Positions 9,052 through 38,389 of a DNA stretch of 39,229 nt are shown here, in pieces (the first letter of the stretch is position 1; every line of letters starts with the position of its first letter). The notes under the pieces are model-generated. The model was given only the letters and a program-made list of their open reading frames with translations, did no database searches and was not told the DNA's origin. The translations under genes and the position numbers were made by a program. The stretch comes from a virus: IMG/VR virus record IMGVR_UViG_3300036715_000378, positions 1-39,229 of that record; one strand, 5' to 3'.

Positions 9052-9371
9052 ACCGTAAAGTAGGATAGTACAGAGGAGCCAGATACTTTAGTTATTCTAA
9101 TAGTAGAGCATCCGGATATAAGTACGCTTGTTTGTTTTATAATAGTTGATTGCACTACATATTCCCAAGTTACGCCGTTATCAAAACTGGTTTCTAGTGA
9201 TAATGTATCTCCCGAATATGGAAACAAAGTTATAGTACATGGTAAAGGCGCCCCTGCCATAGGAACGGGGACAGGTGTAGAATCTAATAAGTAAGAAGGT
9301 GCGATCCAACCGCCCGACATAGTATCCGTTTCTCTGGCTACACTAGGGTTTGTAAAAACTACGGTACTCAT
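9045..9371 (-). CDS. Small virion protein, unknown
   Basis: 108 residues, beta-rich, with LPCTITLFPYSGDTLSLETS and FDNGVTWEYVVQSTI. The strand pattern parallels the adjacent 123-residue protein (a SLDN/SFDNG turn followed by W and V), so the two may be distant duplicates. It overlaps both neighbours (4 and 7 bases), which indicates coupled translation. No catalytic motif or membrane segment is seen. A structural or fibre-base role is inferred from location. Confidence 0.55.
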   Translation of the reverse strand: MSTVVFTNPSVARETDTMSGGWIAPSYLLDSTPVPVPMAGAPLPCTITLFPYSGDTLSLETSFDNGVTWEYVVQSTIIKQTSVLISGCSTIRITKVSGSSVLSYFTVC

Positions 9372-9814
9372 TTATTTTCCTTATCTTTTATCTCATCTGG
9401 ACAATACACAAAACTGTCCAATTTATATTTCTGCATATTCCAGATTGGTTCTGGGGTGAAATGTTTTCCATGAGGGGATGGGCCTCTGTGATGCTTCTCG
9501 CATAAAGGCTCTGTGTTGTAGATCGAGTCTACAAAGTCCTCAGGATTTTTGTAATTAGCCCAGTCAAAGTCTGGGTGAAATTTTTTAACCTTATCCCAAT
9601 CCACGCCATCCGAGTCAGCCCACTCAATGAACTTGTGATGAATTTCTACTTTCTCAGTAGAGCCGCAGACGTCACAAGTAGCTTTCTCAGCGTGCCAATG
9701 TTTCTTAGTAGCAATAAAGACAGGAGACTCTGTTCTAGGTGGGTGATCCGGATAGTAAATGTCTATTACTATAGTTTCGTGTAGCTCATGCTCATTCTCA
9801 GGAATAGTTTTCAT
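9368..9814 (-). CDS. HNH-like zinc protein
   Basis: 148 residues. Two Cys pairs or Cys/His pairs frame the domain: CDVCG (Cys47, Cys50) and CEKHH (Cys105, His108, His109). The IHHK motif (His59, His60) and Asn100 complete an HNH/His-Me finger pattern. HNH nucleases cut DNA using a metal held by His and Asn; in phages they occur as free-standing homing enzymes, packaging cofactors or inactive relatives. Here the spacing between HH and the second Cys/His pair is long because of an acidic, aromatic insertion (WADSDGVDWDKVKKFHPDF). Nothing shows whether it is active. It sits between membrane-protein genes and small virion genes, overlapping the next gene by 4 bases. Confidence 0.72.
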   Translation of the reverse strand: MKTIPENEHELHETIVIDIYYPDHPPRTESPVFIATKKHWHAEKATCDVCGSTEKVEIHHKFIEWADSDGVDWDKVKKFHPDFDWANYKNPEDFVDSIYNTEPLCEKHHRGPSPHGKHFTPEPIWNMQKYKLDSFVYCPDEIKDKENK

Positions 9815-22159: not shown

Positions 22160-22852
22160 TTACACCAGTCCTACATCTTGTTTAAGGGTTTTTATTTTTT
22201 CTATAAGCTTGGAGCTTAGGTAGTTAAGCCTATTAATATTTACTCCTAGTTTACTAGCCAATTCTGAAGCAGGCATTGTACCTTTATTGTCGAATATCAA
22301 CTTCTCTTCAGTAGTAAGCTGGCTCATGATATAATCATACAAAATTTTGTTATTATCAAATTGTTTGTATTCTGTTGGCTTCATCGCAGCGGATTCTACT
22401 AAGTCGGCGTATAGCCCGCTCTTATACTTGACAGTAGCAGCCTTAGACCAATTCAATTCTTTAGCGATCTCTTCATCAGAAGGATCTCTATTTAATCTAT
22501 CTGAAAGGTTAGTGACGGCTTGGTTGTAGTCATGGTACTTTAGCTGCAAGTTCTCTGGCAATCTAACCATGTTTTGAAACTTGTAGTTCATACGACGAAT
22601 CTTAGGTAAGTAACCTACGACGTGCGTGGAAATAGATGCACCCTTAGTCGGGTCATATGTCTGTATTGCTTTATATGTCCACTTCTTAGCTTCGGCAGAT
22701 AGCGCAGAAGTAGGCAGACTACCTGAAGCCCTCTTAACTTCCGAGTATATTAGCGGATTTAGTTGATTAACTAATTCTCCTAAAGTCTTCTTGTCTCCAG
22801 TCTCTTTCCAAGATTCATACAGCTCTTGGTCGCGTCTTTTAACTTCACTCAT
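22160..22852 (-). CDS. Sigma-factor-like protein
   Basis: 230 residues with the region order of a sigma-70 family factor. Region 2 (residues about 25-95) includes AIQTYDPTKGASISTHVVGY, the typical YDPxxG(xx)FxTY-like core-binding and -10 recognition helix. A region 3-like helix set (about 97-150) has LPENLQ, LSDRLNRDPSDEEIAKELNW. Region 4 (about 178-225) has LTTEEKLIF, ASELASKLGVNINRLNYLSS, a helix-turn-helix for -35 or activator contact. There is no region 1.1. It likely redirects the host RNA polymerase to phage, perhaps late, promoters, as T4 gp55 does. It is unusual in being embedded in baseplate genes, overlapping the upstream 64-residue gene by 4 bases. Confidence 0.85.
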   Translation of the reverse strand: MSEVKRRDQELYESWKETGDKKTLGELVNQLNPLIYSEVKRASGSLPTSALSAEAKKWTYKAIQTYDPTKGASISTHVVGYLPKIRRMNYKFQNMVRLPENLQLKYHDYNQAVTNLSDRLNRDPSDEEIAKELNWSKAATVKYKSGLYADLVESAAMKPTEYKQFDNNKILYDYIMSQLTTEEKLIFDNKGTMPASELASKLGVNINRLNYLSSKLIEKIKTLKQDVGLV

Positions 22853-31860: not shown

Positions 31861-33495
31861 TTATTCGTCATCATGGTTGGTATATGTAAAATCGCCACGT
31901 AGAATCATTAACCCTATATTTGCAAATACTACACTATGAACCCAGTCATCAGAGCCATCATCATCTTTACGATATAGTCTCTTACCTGCTCTAGATTCTT
32001 CTTCGAACATACATAATGCATGATCCCAGTACTTGCCTGTTATTTCAAAACTAGGTGCTTCAAAAAACTTTCTACCTAATTTGAATTTCATTATAACAGA
32101 GTCTATGCAAGATGTCCTATCTGCTGCGTAATATCTACCATCCTTATCCCAACGCAGGGTGTTCTTTGCTGTAACGTAGTTAATAGATACTACTTTATCA
32201 TGGCCCAGTTTATTAGCCAACAACTCCCACTGAAGCTTACCGACTCCTCTGTCCATAGACATAATCTGGCAATTGAACTGAGTGTACAAGTCTGCTGCGC
32301 GTTTAACTTGATCGAGAATGTCAGTACCCTGAACTATCTCACTATGTAGTAAGTAAAGCTTACCCATGTAGTCTGAGCCAATAACAGAGAAGGCAGTAAA
32401 GGATTTAGTTGTTCCGGTCACAGACCAGTCACACCCAATCACTACCTGGTTTAAACCACGGTAGTCGGTTGGCCAGCAAGTGTCAAACTCTTTCTTGTCT
32501 GGGTTACAACAGTTGCGAGCTTCTGTTAGAGATAAGATTCTACCCCCACTACCTGAAGCAATGCCGAACACCTCATTACACAACTTAGGTAAAGAATAGT
32601 CTCTAATTTTTTCCTGTAAGTCAGCCCATTTGTTTGGAGCTACTCGAGAGCCAAAGATAATCTGAGGCATGTGAAAACCCATAGACTCATTAGAAGGTTT
32701 CATAGATACCCACTGTCCAGTAGTAATGTCTATTGGTTTAAAGCAGTGTGGGCAGGAAGGACCTAATTTAGAGGAAGAAATTAATAGACATGTTTCTAAG
32801 TCATGAGGGACGGCATACTTACCACAATGAGTACACTTGGTTACCCACTCATTTTGACAGCTACGTTTCCACAGCAAGTCTAAACTACCGCCTTCATTTT
32901 TTGCAGTACCAGTGAAGCGTTTGTATGCATAAGGAGAAGCTGCTAAAGTCTCTTGAAGAATAGGAATAGTATCTAAAGAGATGTCTTGAATCTCGTCCAT
33001 CAATAAGCTATCCGCGTTTACTCCTCGAACTCTATCTGCAGAAGCTTCTGTGTCAGCGTAGCCAAGATATATGATAGAGCCATTAGTAAAGCTCTTCTGG
33101 AATACGTTCTTCTTAGTAGAAGGATCTGTAAAGTGTTTCTTGATAAGCGGATTAGACATGTAAGGGTCTAGGTAGGCTGTCGAGAATCTCGAAGTCTGCC
33201 CACTCAAAGGTGCTATATACAATGTGTTAAAGTAATTCCGGATTATGCTCTGTGAAATAGAGGCACCGCCCATCATTACGGATTTGCCGATCAGCAAATA
33301 TCACCCCCCCATCTTGCTCCAATTTCAGAAGACTAGACAGGGGGGTGACTACTGCCGCCCCGCAACCAGCACTAGGCTTTTAGGAGTTATATCATACACT
33401 GGAATAAAAGGTTCATATCCGTTAAAGGATAAAGGCTTACCTTTTAATCGTAGAATTGATTTAGCAAAGTCTGAAGGCTTAATATCAAATTTCAT
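31861..33495 (-). CDS. Terminase large subunit, interrupted in its Walker A motif
   Basis: ATPase-nuclease that packages DNA into the procapsid. The start at 33495 (AAGGAAT ribosome site) gives 48 residues ending LVLVAGRQ and a TAG. After 60 nt with three in-frame stops the same frame continues IGKSVMMGG. Together this gives AGRQ-IGKS, the Walker A of terminases, so both parts clearly belong to one gene. Walker B is in ADSLLMDEIQD. Zinc-type pairs CTHC and CPHC lie about 150-185 residues into the second part. The nuclease domain has VIGCDWSVTG and DRGVGKLQWE. The second part could also start at TTG 33297 (478 residues). Packaging activity depends on how the gap is bridged. Confidence 0.85.
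33292..33354 (-). other. 60-nt stop-containing hairpin inside the terminase P-loop
   Basis: The inserted segment is 33292-33351, following codon CAG (33354-33352). It contains TAG first and two TGA, all in frame. The core is a perfect 9-bp inverted repeat (TCACCCCCC at 33348-33340 and GGGGGGTGA at 33309-33301) with a 30-nt loop. CAGTAG can extend it by pairing with TTGCTG (two wobbles) over a 3-nt bulge, so the helix starts at the last codon before the gap and ends at the last triplet before it resumes. Inside the loop GGAG stands ahead of an ATG, and GGGGGGTGAT before TTG resembles an extended Shine-Dalgarno sequence. Confidence 0.75.
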
Positions 33496-33721: not shown

Positions 33722-33997
33722 ATGTCATCAGTTGCAATATCAACAACAGAATTTACAGTAACCAGCACCGGTCAAGATTTCTCTATCCCAGGCGATTGGA
33801 CTCCAGCTCAGATCGTTAACATGTATGGTACAACCATTCCTGGTTTGGGTAACATGGATTCTACCGCTGAAGTAGATGGCTCTACTCGTAAAATCACCTT
33901 CCGTCCTAAGACAGGTACTAAAGGTGCTCGTTTACTTAAGACTGGTGTAAAAGGTGCTAGTTTATTTAAGCGTGTTGTGAATTTCTTAATTGGCTAA
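33722..33997 (+). CDS. Ubiquitin-like protein, PRTRC protein C-like
   Basis: 91 residues, first gene of the plus operon, preceded by AAGGAAAT. Residues about 10-68 fit the short beta-grasp protein of PRTRC loci: FTVTSTGQDFSIPG, DWTPAQIVNMYGTTIPGLGN, RKITFRPKTGTKG. The closing GTKG (65-68) corresponds to the usual end of that family. An extension follows as an imperfect 10-residue duplication (KTGTKGARLL / KTGVKGASLF) and a hydrophobic, basic tail ending FLIG. Ub-like modifiers act through a C-terminal Gly activated by E1; here Gly68, Gly78 or the terminal Gly91 are candidates. Coding context (E1, E2-like and JAB downstream) strongly supports the role. The family call is from memory of the motif. 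Confidence 0.7.
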   Translation: MSSVAISTTEFTVTSTGQDFSIPGDWTPAQIVNMYGTTIPGLGNMDSTAEVDGSTRKITFRPKTGTKGARLLKTGVKGASLFKRVVNFLIG

Positions 33998-34022
33998 TAA
34001 CTAGCTAGTCTAGTTGTTGTTG

Positions 34023-34052
34023 AAGCAGGGGTTTAACTCTCCTGCTTTTTTT
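34023..34052 (+). terminator. Rho-independent terminator after the Ubl gene
   Basis: AAGCAGG / CCTGCTT stem with an 11-nt loop, followed by a T-run on the plus strand. It lies 25 bases past the Ubl stop and 30 bases before the next gene. No promoter of obvious quality is seen between it and the next gene, so it probably works as a partial terminator and makes the Ubl mRNA more abundant than that of the enzymes. Confidence 0.8.
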
Positions 34053-34081
34053 AGTTTACAAATAAATAAGGGTATAGGATT

Positions 34082-34756
34082 ATGTCCAATGATCTTGAGT
34101 CTGCCATAGAGACGTTAAATAGTTATGAAGGAATGTCTAACAAGCTAGTGCACATCAAGGCTATTGGACATAACGCCTGTATAAAGTCTCTTTGTAAGTA
34201 TTCTAATTTCAAGCTTAAAGAGCTAGGTCTGGTAACTGCCGGCTATAGTAAGACTATAGACTTATATCGCCCTATAGGCAATCTAAGAACGTTATGGCAA
34301 ATTATTTCTCGTAATCTCAGAGTTAGAATTCCATATCTAGCACCTATGGAGGCAGAGTTTGTTAAAGTGCGTAATGATTACGTAAGTCTTCGTCCTCATC
34401 CAAGCCCTAGAGTTGAAAGATACCTGCGTATGATGGGTAGAAAGTTAAGTACGCTTACAAATGGTACCTACGAGCTTATTAGTAGGTATGACTCTGAGAT
34501 GGATCGAGAAATTTGGATATTAAGGTATTGTGACATAGTACCTTCTAAGGCTAACAGAATCTATGCTTTTAGTATTTTAGAAATGCTAGAGGATATGCTT
34601 CAGGTTCTAGCCACTCTTCATAGAGAGATGTGCATAAGAGACGATATTCTTCCAGATAACTTCTTCCTTAGAGAGGAGGGTGTGCAGCCTGTGGAAGTGG
34701 TACCCGTCCAACCAGTAATCGAAACCGTCACTATACTAGGAGATATAAATGAGTGA
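34082..34756 (+). CDS. Unknown protein of the Ubl operon (224 aa)
   Basis: Helix-rich, basic protein. N-terminal LESAIETLNSYEGMSNKLVH, then LRTLWQIISRNLRVRIPYLA, LRPHPSPRVERYLRMMGRKL, and YAFSILEMLEDMLQVLATLH; a short proline/valine tail (VEVVPVQPVIETV) follows. No catalytic or zinc motif is seen. It overlaps the next gene by 8 bases. In the plasmid PRTRC loci I recall that extra proteins (E, F) sit between the C and B genes, so by position this may correspond to one of them; I see no sequence evidence for that. Its place in the operon suggests a partner or substrate of the conjugation enzymes. Confidence 0.7.
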   Translation: MSNDLESAIETLNSYEGMSNKLVHIKAIGHNACIKSLCKYSNFKLKELGLVTAGYSKTIDLYRPIGNLRTLWQIISRNLRVRIPYLAPMEAEFVKVRNDYVSLRPHPSPRVERYLRMMGRKLSTLTNGTYELISRYDSEMDREIWILRYCDIVPSKANRIYAFSILEMLEDMLQVLATLHREMCIRDDILPDNFFLREEGVQPVEVVPVQPVIETVTILGDINE

Positions 34757-35015
34757 GCAGGCAGATAAAATTAATATTTTAGATTTCTTGAATCTAAACG
34801 TTGAGACCCTACCTGATGTGTATGAGTCAGGTATGGCTAAATTAAAACTTGCTTTTGAGGTCCCTACTAACTCAAAAGAGCTTACTCAAATCTTTGAACT
34901 ATTCACAAAATATTTTGATGCTAGAGATAGTATTAGAGCTCCTAATCCAAAAGTAATAAGTGATGCAGCCAAGAGAATGCCTCACTTCCAATCCACCGTA
35001 GACTTTTATATTTAA
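34749..35015 (+). CDS. Unknown small protein of the Ubl operon (88 aa)
   Basis: 88 residues, helical, acidic at the N-terminus (SEQADKINILDFLNLNVETL). Then LKLAFEVPTNSKELTQIFEL and DAAKRMPHFQSTVDFYI. Its ATG is inside the end of the 224-residue gene (8-base overlap), so the two are coupled and likely interact. No family is recognised. The gap to the E2-like gene is only 11 bases. Confidence 0.65.
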   Translation: MSEQADKINILDFLNLNVETLPDVYESGMAKLKLAFEVPTNSKELTQIFELFTKYFDARDSIRAPNPKVISDAAKRMPHFQSTVDFYI

Positions 35016-35026
35016 TAGGAAATTAA

Positions 35027-35674
35027 ATGGCACAGAATTTTATAATGCATTCCACGCATGTGGAGTTTGAAACGCCTACTGGTCTAATGAAAGCTTTATC
35101 TTTTGCAGACTTTAAATGCTTAATAGACAAAGCAGTCGAAGCTACTGAAGTAGAAGAGCCTATTTTGTTACCAAGCAATTGCTACTTAATCAGTAGGGCA
35201 GGAGATAATATGAAGCTGTCTTGCTATTACCCTGCTGCTATACGAGAGATTGAGTTTATTAGACGCGTAGACGGAAAGCCTAAAAAACACACGATACCCT
35301 TCCCTAACATGATTCTTAACTTCCTACTAACTAAGTCTGCAGACAAGTGGATTGTTAAAAGTGTCTATTACTACTGTACGGATAAGAAGTTATCTCAGTT
35401 ACCTCTTCGTGCTGTTACTACACAAGACGAAGGTGTTTGGAATAGCCCAATGCCTAACACGTTCGGGGATGCTCATATGTGCTACGGTAGAAACTCCATG
35501 CCTTCAGGATTTGTTGATAACTTCCGAGGCTTGGATTGGTATTTCTCGTTTCTATTCTCAACACCTTTTAATAGTGACCTGAGTATCAGCTGTGTAAAAG
35601 GTACACAGCCTGCAGATTGGATTAATGAGTTATCAGGTATGACAGAGTTTCCATACGCCAGACTAGGTAAGTAA
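35027..35674 (+). CDS. E2-like protein, PRTRC protein B-like
   Basis: 215 residues. The fold pattern is beta-rich N-terminus (HVEFETPTGLMKALSFADF), middle strands (MKLSCYYPAAIREIEF, KHTIPFPNMILNFLL), then WIVKSVYYYC. Near the end is SPMPNTFGDAHMCYGRN with Cys152 in HMCYGRN, followed by WYFSFLFSTPFNSDLS. PRTRC protein B proteins, considered E2-like in comparative studies, have an equivalent P-x-N-x-G-x-x-C-x-G segment where the Cys would carry the Ubl thioester. I see that pattern here but without a search cannot rank it above other possibilities. The position between the small proteins and the JAB gene agrees with the PRTRC order. Confidence 0.6.
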   Translation: MAQNFIMHSTHVEFETPTGLMKALSFADFKCLIDKAVEATEVEEPILLPSNCYLISRAGDNMKLSCYYPAAIREIEFIRRVDGKPKKHTIPFPNMILNFLLTKSADKWIVKSVYYYCTDKKLSQLPLRAVTTQDEGVWNSPMPNTFGDAHMCYGRNSMPSGFVDNFRGLDWYFSFLFSTPFNSDLSISCVKGTQPADWINELSGMTEFPYARLGK

Positions 35675-35735
35675 CATTCTTAGTCGTTGTTATTAGTTAT
35701 TATTCAATATTGTTAAATTAGAGGAGGATTCCTAA

Positions 35736-37016
35736 ATGAAAGAATTAGTTAAATTTATATCTTGTGTTGTTACCCCAGATGAGTTTGAAGAAGTCAAAGC
35801 TTCAGGAGCATGGTCAGAAATCTATATTAAAGATGGTCTTAACTTCTTCAAATACACGAAGCTTCGAGGCGGTCGTCATGTTACAGTAAAAGTACCAGCT
35901 ATTCCTGGATTGGTTAATAGTGCAGATTCTATTAAAGAAGACATTAACTTCCTTCCTGCTGGAAAGATTCCTGCAACTTTACTTCATGACATCATTGCTT
36001 TCTTTAAAGATGTTATGAGTACAACTAAGCAAGACGTTGAAGCTATGGCTCACATCCTGTGGAATGCTACTGATGGTTACCACATCGCAGTACCTAATCA
36101 AACAATCAGTAAGGCTGCGGTTAGTTATGGGAATGACCATATTAAAGAAGGCGATATAATCGTATTAGATATTCACAGCCATAACACTATGGGCGCATTC
36201 TTTTCTGGAACAGATAACGCAGATGATCGTAACGGTATTTACTACTCAGGAGTAGTCGGTAAATTAAACATGCTAACTCCTGAGTTAGTATGGCGCTTCA
36301 ATATTGGTGCAGAAAAACGCACTGCTTCAGTAACAGACATCTTTGAAGTAGAAGTTCTAGGCAAGTCTAAACCAGAATGGTTAAGCCAAGTCAAGATTCG
36401 TACTGCTCCTGCAGTTCCTCCGTTCAACCCTAATTTAAACTCTGGTGCTCACGATTGGGTAAATAAGTATAAAGGTCCTAATACTCCAGGTGTTCAAGGC
36501 GCTCCAAGATTACCTTCTACCAACATGCGTGATGGGTTTGATAACTTCATGGGTTTTGGTGCTGATGACCTAGGCCCGGCCTTTGCTTTCAGTAGTGGAA
36601 CCAATGATCTGTTCTCACAAGGAACTGACAACTCTTCCCTAGGTCGTATCTCTAAGAAAGAGCGTAAAGCTATTCAGCGGGGAGAAGGTGTATGGCGCAA
36701 TGGTAAGTTCGTGCCTACTACTAATGTGACCCCTATTACTAGCCGTAGTTATAATGAAACTTACGTAGCTGGGCCTTTGGATATGGACGGTCTTGAAGGT
36801 ATTGTCAGTATGGGGGATATGGGTTATACAGAGTCAGAAGATAGCGTCATGATGAATTCTCTTATGAGTGAGGACATTGCAGACGCAATAGGAACCATCG
36901 AAGATGTATTAGAAGATTTAGAAGGAGCAGATGTAGAAATACTTACGCTAATGCGTAAAATGTATGCCATGCTCTCTGGAGCTGGTCAAGCCAAAATAGC
37001 CACTGAAGGAATCTAA
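35736..37016 (+). CDS. JAB/JAMM isopeptidase-like, PRTRC protein A-like
   Basis: 426 residues with a strong ribosome site, GAGGAGG, 9 bases before the ATG. The JAMM metalloprotease signature is complete: Glu102 (DVEAMAHILW), His147 and His149 (LDIHSHN), seven residues, then Ser157 and Asp160 (FFSGTD), i.e. HxHx7Sx2D. This fold hydrolyses peptide or isopeptide bonds after the C-terminal Gly of ubiquitin-like proteins using zinc. It could mature the Ubl or remove it from targets. The N-terminal 70 residues are beta-rich. The C-terminal 210 residues are a low-complexity and acidic extension, with SKKERKAIQRGEGVWRNGKF (about residues 306-325) in it. The E1 gene follows 2 bases after the stop. Confidence 0.85.
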   Translation: MKELVKFISCVVTPDEFEEVKASGAWSEIYIKDGLNFFKYTKLRGGRHVTVKVPAIPGLVNSADSIKEDINFLPAGKIPATLLHDIIAFFKDVMSTTKQDVEAMAHILWNATDGYHIAVPNQTISKAAVSYGNDHIKEGDIIVLDIHSHNTMGAFFSGTDNADDRNGIYYSGVVGKLNMLTPELVWRFNIGAEKRTASVTDIFEVEVLGKSKPEWLSQVKIRTAPAVPPFNPNLNSGAHDWVNKYKGPNTPGVQGAPRLPSTNMRDGFDNFMGFGADDLGPAFAFSSGTNDLFSQGTDNSSLGRISKKERKAIQRGEGVWRNGKFVPTTNVTPITSRSYNETYVAGPLDMDGLEGIVSMGDMGYTESEDSVMMNSLMSEDIADAIGTIEDVLEDLEGADVEILTLMRKMYAMLSGAGQAKIATEGI

Positions 37017-37018
37017 AT

Positions 37019-38389
37019 ATGTTTGAATTTATCCCGAATACAGTTCCTAATACTGTAGTAGTAGTGGGTGCTGGTGGTACAGGGGGTAGGTTAATACCTC
37101 TGTTAGCTCAGTTCCTTAAAACAATGCCTTGGGTCATCGACCCTGCTATTATCATTGTTGATGATGATATTGTAGAGGAGAAGAATCTACTACGTCAGAA
37201 TTTTATTCGTGCTGACGTTGGTAGACCTAAAGCAGTAGTTATGGCTGAACGATATTCTCGTGCTTTTAATATTGAGATTATTCCGGTAGTCAAACGAGTG
37301 GAAGGTTATTATCGAGAGCATAAAGTACTCTTCGAAAACCGCACTACAGATAATGGTTCTCCTATTGTTGTTATGTGTGTTGACTCAGCTGATGCACGTA
37401 GAGCTATTTTAAAAGCTTTCTACTCAGTTAGTGGTAGTGGGCAACCGTTATTTATTGATGCAGGTAACGAGGATTCCTTTGGTCAAGTAATGGCGTTTCA
37501 TGCTCAGTACTTAACTAGGTCTGAGGGCTATAGTTTCCAGGATTACCTGAATCAATATGAAATTCCTCCTATGTTGCCGGTTCGTGTTAGAGTCCCTAGC
37601 CTATACATTGATTTGGATTTCTACGCAAACTTGGTTGATACACCTGGGGGTAGCTGTGCTGACTTAGACCAGACCTTGGCTATTAATGCGATGATGGCAA
37701 CCAGTATTATGGGTGTCATTCAGAACTACTACTATGTCAAGCCTTTTACCACAACTCGCATCAACTTGGTCGTAGCTCAAGGAGGTTCTTCTAACATGTC
37801 TGACCTTAGAGGAATGTATAATATCGCCAGTACAACACCAATCAGGGAGTTAGTAGAATCCAGTAATCTTCGTGGTACTAGCTTAGACTCTCTATTCAGT
37901 GAGGCTAGACGCAGCTATGATCTGTTAATGGAGGAGCAGCGAGAAGCAGCGAGAGTATTAAAGGAAGCAGAGGAAGCTCGGGCTAAAGCTGAGAAGATTC
38001 TAGCTGAGGCTATGGCTAAGGAGAGGGCTGAGGCTGAGGCTCTGGCTATGGCCGAGGATGCTACAGTAGTAGTAGAAACTCCGGAGATGCAAAGTATGCG
38101 TGTTCGCATCGAGGAGTATCATCAGGACCAGTTATCAGAAATGAATGCTATTGCTGTTAATGCTATTAATGCTAGTAGAGGAGAGAGCACAGCAGCCACT
38201 GTACTGACAGAGGAGATGGATGCAGAAATGTATAGAGATGCTATTGCTGCGGCTATGGGGACTGGTAGAACAACGACAGTTAACGTCACAGATGGTGAAA
38301 TAGATGGAATACCTAATTCTACTGTTATGCTGGATGTTAGTGAAGCCGGGCTTGAGGTGCTTATTTCAGCACTTTCAGCTCAGTCCTAG
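37019..38389 (+). CDS. E1/ThiF-like Ubl-activating enzyme, PRTRC ThiF-like
   Basis: 456 residues. The nucleotide-binding Rossmann motif is VVVGAGGTGG (GAGGTGG at 17-23), then IIIVDDD (44-50), and EKNLLRQNFIRADVGRPKA (54-72) with Asn56, Arg59, Gln60 and Lys71 as in E1 adenylation sites. VMCVDSADARRAIL (118-131) gives the acidic residue that binds magnesium. Cys213, in GGSCADLDQTLAINAMMATS, matches the S-C-S/x-L-x-x-Q-x-L-x-I-N region of PRTRC ThiF and is the candidate thioester cysteine. A charged coiled-coil (about 305-350) and a C-terminal tail follow. These enzymes adenylate the Ubl C-terminal Gly. Translation seems coupled to the JAB gene. Confidence 0.85.
   Translation: MFEFIPNTVPNTVVVVGAGGTGGRLIPLLAQFLKTMPWVIDPAIIIVDDDIVEEKNLLRQNFIRADVGRPKAVVMAERYSRAFNIEIIPVVKRVEGYYREHKVLFENRTTDNGSPIVVMCVDSADARRAILKAFYSVSGSGQPLFIDAGNEDSFGQVMAFHAQYLTRSEGYSFQDYLNQYEIPPMLPVRVRVPSLYIDLDFYANLVDTPGGSCADLDQTLAINAMMATSIMGVIQNYYYVKPFTTTRINLVVAQGGSSNMSDLRGMYNIASTTPIRELVESSNLRGTSLDSLFSEARRSYDLLMEEQREAARVLKEAEEARAKAEKILAEAMAKERAEAEALAMAEDATVVVETPEMQSMRVRIEEYHQDQLSEMNAIAVNAINASRGESTAATVLTEEMDAEMYRDAIAAAMGTGRTTTVNVTDGEIDGIPNSTVMLDVSEAGLEVLISALSAQS

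Follow-up and report, generated by a model that had tools for sequence, protein, structure and literature searches.

A 60-nt hairpin-forming insert splits the P-loop of a phage large terminase gene and is a possible ribosome-bypass gap

In the phage sequence analyzed here, the large terminase subunit gene (terL) has an otherwise intact P-loop that is split by a precise 60-nt insert. This interruption is unusual, and its observation is confirmed. The best single explanation, by functional analogy, might be that ribosomes are programmed to bypass the gap, as in T4 gene 60; we hold this reading tentatively, with a confidence somewhat short of even, and on codon matching the gap does not qualify as a member of the T4 type. 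The sequence is the metagenomic IMG/VR virus record IMGVR_UViG_3300036715_000378, all 39,229 bp of which form the window, and its structural genes lie mostly on the minus strand.

The terL gene occupies 33495-31861 on the minus strand, as do all of its parts described below, and matches GpA_ATPase (PF05876). Its product shares 46% identity with TerL of Salmonella phage Arash and 40% with TerL of Vibrio phages D69, D181, and D148; sequence searches found no relative of it in the PDB and none in GTDB genomes. The first segment (33352..33495) comprises 48 codons (MKFDIKPSDFAKSILRLKGKPLSFNGYEPFIPVYDITPKSLVLVAGRQ), starts with ATG at 33495, and ends in AGRQ, and its last codon, CAG (33354-33352), is the putative take-off codon. 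The first stop, TAG, lies immediately 3′ of this codon and begins a non-coding gap of 60 nt (33292..33351; TAGTCACCCCCCTGTCTAGTCTTCTGAAATTGGAGCAAGATGGGGGGGTGATATTTGCTG) with the in-frame stops TAG, TGA, and TGA. The terL frame then resumes with ATC GGC AAA TCC at 33291, and the second segment (31861..33291) contains 476 codons from IGKS plus a stop and carries the PF05876 match. Both flanks of the gap are conserved TerL coding sequence, and when joined they read ...LVLVAGRQIGKSVMMGG, in agreement with 27 uninterrupted relatives. An earlier note on this DNA had described a Walker A motif split as AGRQ-TAG-60 nt-IGKS with three in-frame stops, and its coordinates proved exact. No other split gene was seen in the window by comparison with Arash, D69, and the IMG/VR loci.

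The P-loop is uninterrupted in Arash and in each of the 26 other IMG/VR relatives whose sequence covers the site, with the pattern [AC][GS]RQ[IV]GK[ST]. These 27 sequences consist of 16 + 10 IMG/VR contigs and Arash, several being near-identical to one another, and Q and GK are present in every one. Since Q is invariant, it is the upstream CAG that encodes this residue, which places the insert between CAG and ATC. Conserved flanks and the presence of Q and GK throughout further argue that a working motor needs the joined loop.

Different interruptions are found at the same site in the Vibrio phages. In D69, D181, and D148, a group I intron of 243 nt (RF00028) interrupts the same Walker A loop between AGR and QVGKS, one codon upstream of the gap position, and the depositors begin terL at the intron end. 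In contrast, the gap is only 60 nt long, and no RF00028 match occurs at the gap or elsewhere in the window. In D69, the terL gene is mis-annotated, with exon 1 as VPHD69_0325, exon 2 as VPHD69_0001, and the intron between them (L004:1-1506, L005:1114-1434); a hypothetical gene, VPHD69_0326, is called inside this intron. A GIY-YIG/NUMOD3 endonuclease gene is located just 5′ of D69 terL exon 1, and no match to it was found 5′ of terL in D181 or D148. Similarly, in an IMG/VR relative, a GIY-YIG/NUMOD3 gene (L011:2428-3189) shares 11 nt with the start of an uninterrupted terL. No homing endonuclease gene adjoins terL in the gapped phage. Because relatives carry an intron and endonuclease genes there, the terL P-loop region is a site of mobile-element activity in related phages. 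Intron, endonuclease, uninterrupted, and gapped states thus all occur at one terL site.

The gap is bridged from edge to edge by a hairpin (33292..33354), with GTCACCCCCCTGTCT as the 5′ arm, AGATGGGGGGGTGAT as the 3′ arm, and a base formed by CGGCAG or CAGTAG paired with TTGCTG. The RNA fold bears out this structure, as the earlier note had proposed; the arms given there also hold, except that the 3′ arm contains seven G rather than six. The 91 nt around the gap fold at -46.3 kcal/mol (z -5.5), and none of 200 shuffles was as good, so the fold is not attributable to chance. Moreover, when 63-nt windows were scanned on both strands in 3-nt steps over the whole window, the gap hairpin ranked first at -35.7 kcal/mol (next best, -27.2 kcal/mol), more than 8 kcal/mol ahead of all other folds. 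In the predicted fold, the two ends of the gap pair with each other, and each junction falls at an internal loop beside a 6-bp helix. Only one gap allele is known; the stem therefore comes without covariation. With 12-15 nt past the take-off codon masked, what is left folds at -15 or -6 kcal/mol instead of -32 kcal/mol. The 3′ side of the gap also contains an extended complement of the anti-Shine-Dalgarno (anti-SD) sequence, ATGGGGGGGTGATA (33312-33299, centre 33303..33309). Its pairing with AUCACCUCCUUA, an E. coli-like 16S 3′ end that may not be the host's, scores -17.5 kcal/mol and ranks first among 78,430 14-mers of both strands. This best anti-SD match of the window sits just 5′ of the resumption point and 6 nt before a UUG in the terL frame (33295..33297), which follows the G run by 6 nt.

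If the gap is bypassed, ribosomes would read the 48 terL codons and stall in front of a very stable hairpin, with their P and A sites occupied by CAG and UAG, respectively. They would then slide across the gap and resume translation at AUC 33291, with CUG (33292..33294) as the putative landing codon; this is the only triplet whose use for landing restores GRQ-IGKS. Pairing of GGGGGGGUGAU with 16S rRNA would steer the ribosomes to the resumption point, and the product would be a single TerL chain whose GRQIGKS loop is intact. The gap might have arisen as a protection against a homing endonuclease. Bypass, landing on CUG, and this origin are all what we infer. The bypass-type element proposed in the earlier note is supported in part.

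Several features expected of a bypass gap are present. A stop directly follows the take-off codon (CAG TAG), and the hairpin stands at the take-off site and is larger than that of T4. An SD-like sequence lies just 5′ of the landing site, as judged with the E. coli-like 16S 3′ end, perhaps not the host's. Furthermore, the gap is absent from homologous genes, and its flanks join into a conserved protein. However, the hairpin (-35 kcal/mol, 63 nt) is far larger than a short take-off stem-loop, which counts against bypass. The landing codon is the weak point of this reading, and the objection of the earlier note stands here: CAG and CUG do not share their middle base, and the cognate Gln triplets near the landing site (CAA at 33316-33314 and 33286-33284) are in another frame. 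Take-off at GGG with landing at GGC, both Gly codons, was rejected, as it would delete RQI. No recognizable nascent-peptide signal of the KKYK type was found in the 48-codon leader; the basic residues R16, K18, and K20, about 30 aa from the P site, are common to uninterrupted relatives.

In T4 gene 60, UAG directly follows the GGA take-off codon (PMC11194080), and a 46-codon leader precedes a 50-nt gap (PMC5009743, PMC11194080). The T4 gap mRNA is described as largely unfolded, and bypass processivity declines past 56 nt (PMC11194080); both points speak against bypass of the 60-nt terL gap. The T4 landing site is preceded, six nt upstream, by an SD-like GAG that pairs with 16S rRNA (PMC3014915), and minimal pairing can suffice for resumption according to a title in the reference list of PMC3014915. 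Bypass is established in T4 gene 60, to which terL is likened here from its sequence. Both genes have a short gap near codon 47-49 with a stop right after the take-off codon, a gap hairpin, and an SD-like sequence 5′ of the resumption site. Both gaps also occur in one phage only among relatives and in a homing endonuclease context (mobA in T4). In contrast, terL uses CAG/CUG instead of GGA/GGA, its gap is 60 nt and in frame instead of 50 nt, after 48 codons instead of 46, and its hairpin covers the entire gap. Moreover, the interrupted site is a terminase P-loop rather than a topoisomerase, and the endonuclease is not adjacent. The T4 gap has been proposed to be a degenerate group I intron that protects against a homing endonuclease, an idea that fits the intron and endonuclease genes found at the terL site in relatives.

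Several byp elements of Magnusiomyces capitatus mitochondria also lack perfectly matched codons (PMC5009743). The terL insert resembles them as a short insert in an essential gene with imperfectly matched codons; it differs in being a single copy, compared with 81 byps in one genome, and the byps are read by mitochondrial ribosomes. No second copy was found in the window or in a second contig described below, and searches of IMG/VR with the exact left or right arm gave no further copy. An arm-gap-arm pattern search returned eight other matches, all unrelated stem-loops, and distant blastn against phage and plasmid records gave only short chance matches. Further copies elsewhere, as expected of a mobile byp-like element, were thus not found. 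A candidate bypass in the terminase gene of Streptomyces phage Hau3 is suggested in a passage of PMC5009743, which ties it to a UUA codon and not to a deleterious insert.

To our knowledge, no bypass gap in a phage gene other than that of T4 gene 60 has been well studied, and the codon-matching rule and the origin of such gaps rest on that one case. We give slightly less weight, again below even, to the full proposal that terL contains a second natural phage bypass gap, with a whole-gap hairpin, non-matching codons, landing mainly by 16S rRNA pairing, a position in the P-loop of an essential packaging ATPase, and an origin at a homing-endonuclease site. If true, a second bypass gap with non-matching codons would test what directs landing. 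The four states at one site in related phages make an origin of gaps from homing-endonuclease warfare testable. If two chains are made instead, a motor ATPase split inside the P-loop would also be unexpected. Sequence alone is insufficient to choose between bypass and reinitiation.

Reinitiation at UUG 33297, giving a split TerL by translational coupling, is the best rival, although we regard it as rather unlikely. Ribosomes would end at UAG and melt the 5′ arm, an anti-SD mimic, freeing the SD in the 3′ arm. The products would be a 48-residue chain and a chain of about 478 residues (MLIGKS...), assembling without a covalent link. The earlier note had understated this alternative: of all sites in the window, the one preceding UUG 33297 matches the anti-SD sequence best. 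A ribosome at UAG would also open the stem, as hiding 12-15 nt leaves a fold of the reduced strength given above. Moreover, two-chain enzymes from phage genes split by homing endonucleases are functional, as for NrdA of Aeh1 and gp43 of phage 25 (PMC2988022). However, the break would separate Q from I within the phosphate-binding loop, and UUG is a weak start. We know of no precedent for a working enzyme split within the P-loop. The SD match may have come about incidentally, since the hairpin also requires the G run, and the placement of the stop directly after the last codon is left unexplained.

Heterogeneous or damaged DNA is a slightly less likely rival still. The insert would be recent or reversible, or would mark a loss-of-function allele, and DNA would be packaged by an uninterrupted copy, present in part of the population or at another place in the genome. 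The element is found nowhere else, and expression of terL is deduced from the DNA. Judging from relatives, the genome is probably near 180 kb and is known only in part, which leaves room for a second terL. Nevertheless, no other terL was found in the known sequence of the phage, and the insert is the consensus in two assemblies: IMGVR_UViG_3300035661_000220 carries the identical 60 nt and flanks. Over 6,117 bp, a single SNP (37165) separates this second contig from the window, and the contig reaches beyond the window's end; it is therefore a different assembly. Assembly 3300035661 shares another virus with two further assemblies, its 9.4-kb loci (L012, L013, L025) being identical, and both source samples may come from one site; the two contigs therefore count as independently assembled but not as independently evolved. 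Both flanks are also open and conserved. The last 44 residues of the first segment share 39-52% identity with the IMG/VR relatives and Arash (27% with D69), compared with 43-61% for this segment among other comparably distant non-Vibrio pairs, so any relaxation of the 5′ segment is slight at most.

Excision of the 60 nt from the RNA as a minimal intron-like element is improbable. The hairpin would set CAG|UAG opposite CUG|AUC; the ends pair, both junctions fall at the internal loops around the 6-bp helix of the predicted fold, and the reading frame would be restored exactly. A true group I intron also lies one codon away in relatives. However, 60 nt is far under the size of a self-splicing intron, the window has no Rfam match, and by eye the insert is unlike the 243-nt Vibrio intron. 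We know of no bacterial machinery that cuts and joins mRNA in such a manner. An assembly or sequencing artefact, raised in the earlier note and considered since the evidence consists of metagenomic contigs only, is very improbable because a second IMG/VR assembly, with one SNP and different end points, has the insert unchanged, and because the insert is codon-precise and otherwise shows no relation to adjacent sequence.

Other candidate readings were rejected. Frameshifting in and out could use another frame that is open through the gap, but shifts would be needed before TAG and back after the TGA following the G run, and about 20 foreign residues would remain in the P-loop. Readthrough of the three stops would likewise leave foreign residues there. 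The hairpin is not a terminator, as no T run follows it on either strand.

Other features of the phage were observed around terL and in the second contig. A ubiquitin-like conjugation cassette (33722-38389, plus strand) lies beside terL and includes Prok-E2_D (35027), Prok-JAB (35736), and ThiF/E1 (37019) genes, together with two unknown ORFs and a 91-aa ORF at 33722 that, from its position, may be the modifier. Homologs of parts of this cassette occur near terL in three other loci (L008, L009, L016). The second contig carries a reverse transcriptase gene (PF00078) that overlaps an ORF upstream of it (L035:8066-9410) and may be retron-like. It also carries tandem ORFs of 571 and 494 aa (L036:100-3272) with weak Vsr, DUF723, DUF4379, and Mom-like matches; these resemble homing endonucleases and adjoin a capsid-like gene on the opposite strand. 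In the window, a 148-aa ORF (9368-9814, minus strand) without a Pfam match has an HNH-like Cys/His pattern. Finally, a sigma-factor-like gene (22160-22852, minus strand) lies within the structural cassette and is conserved in Arash (gp10) and D69.
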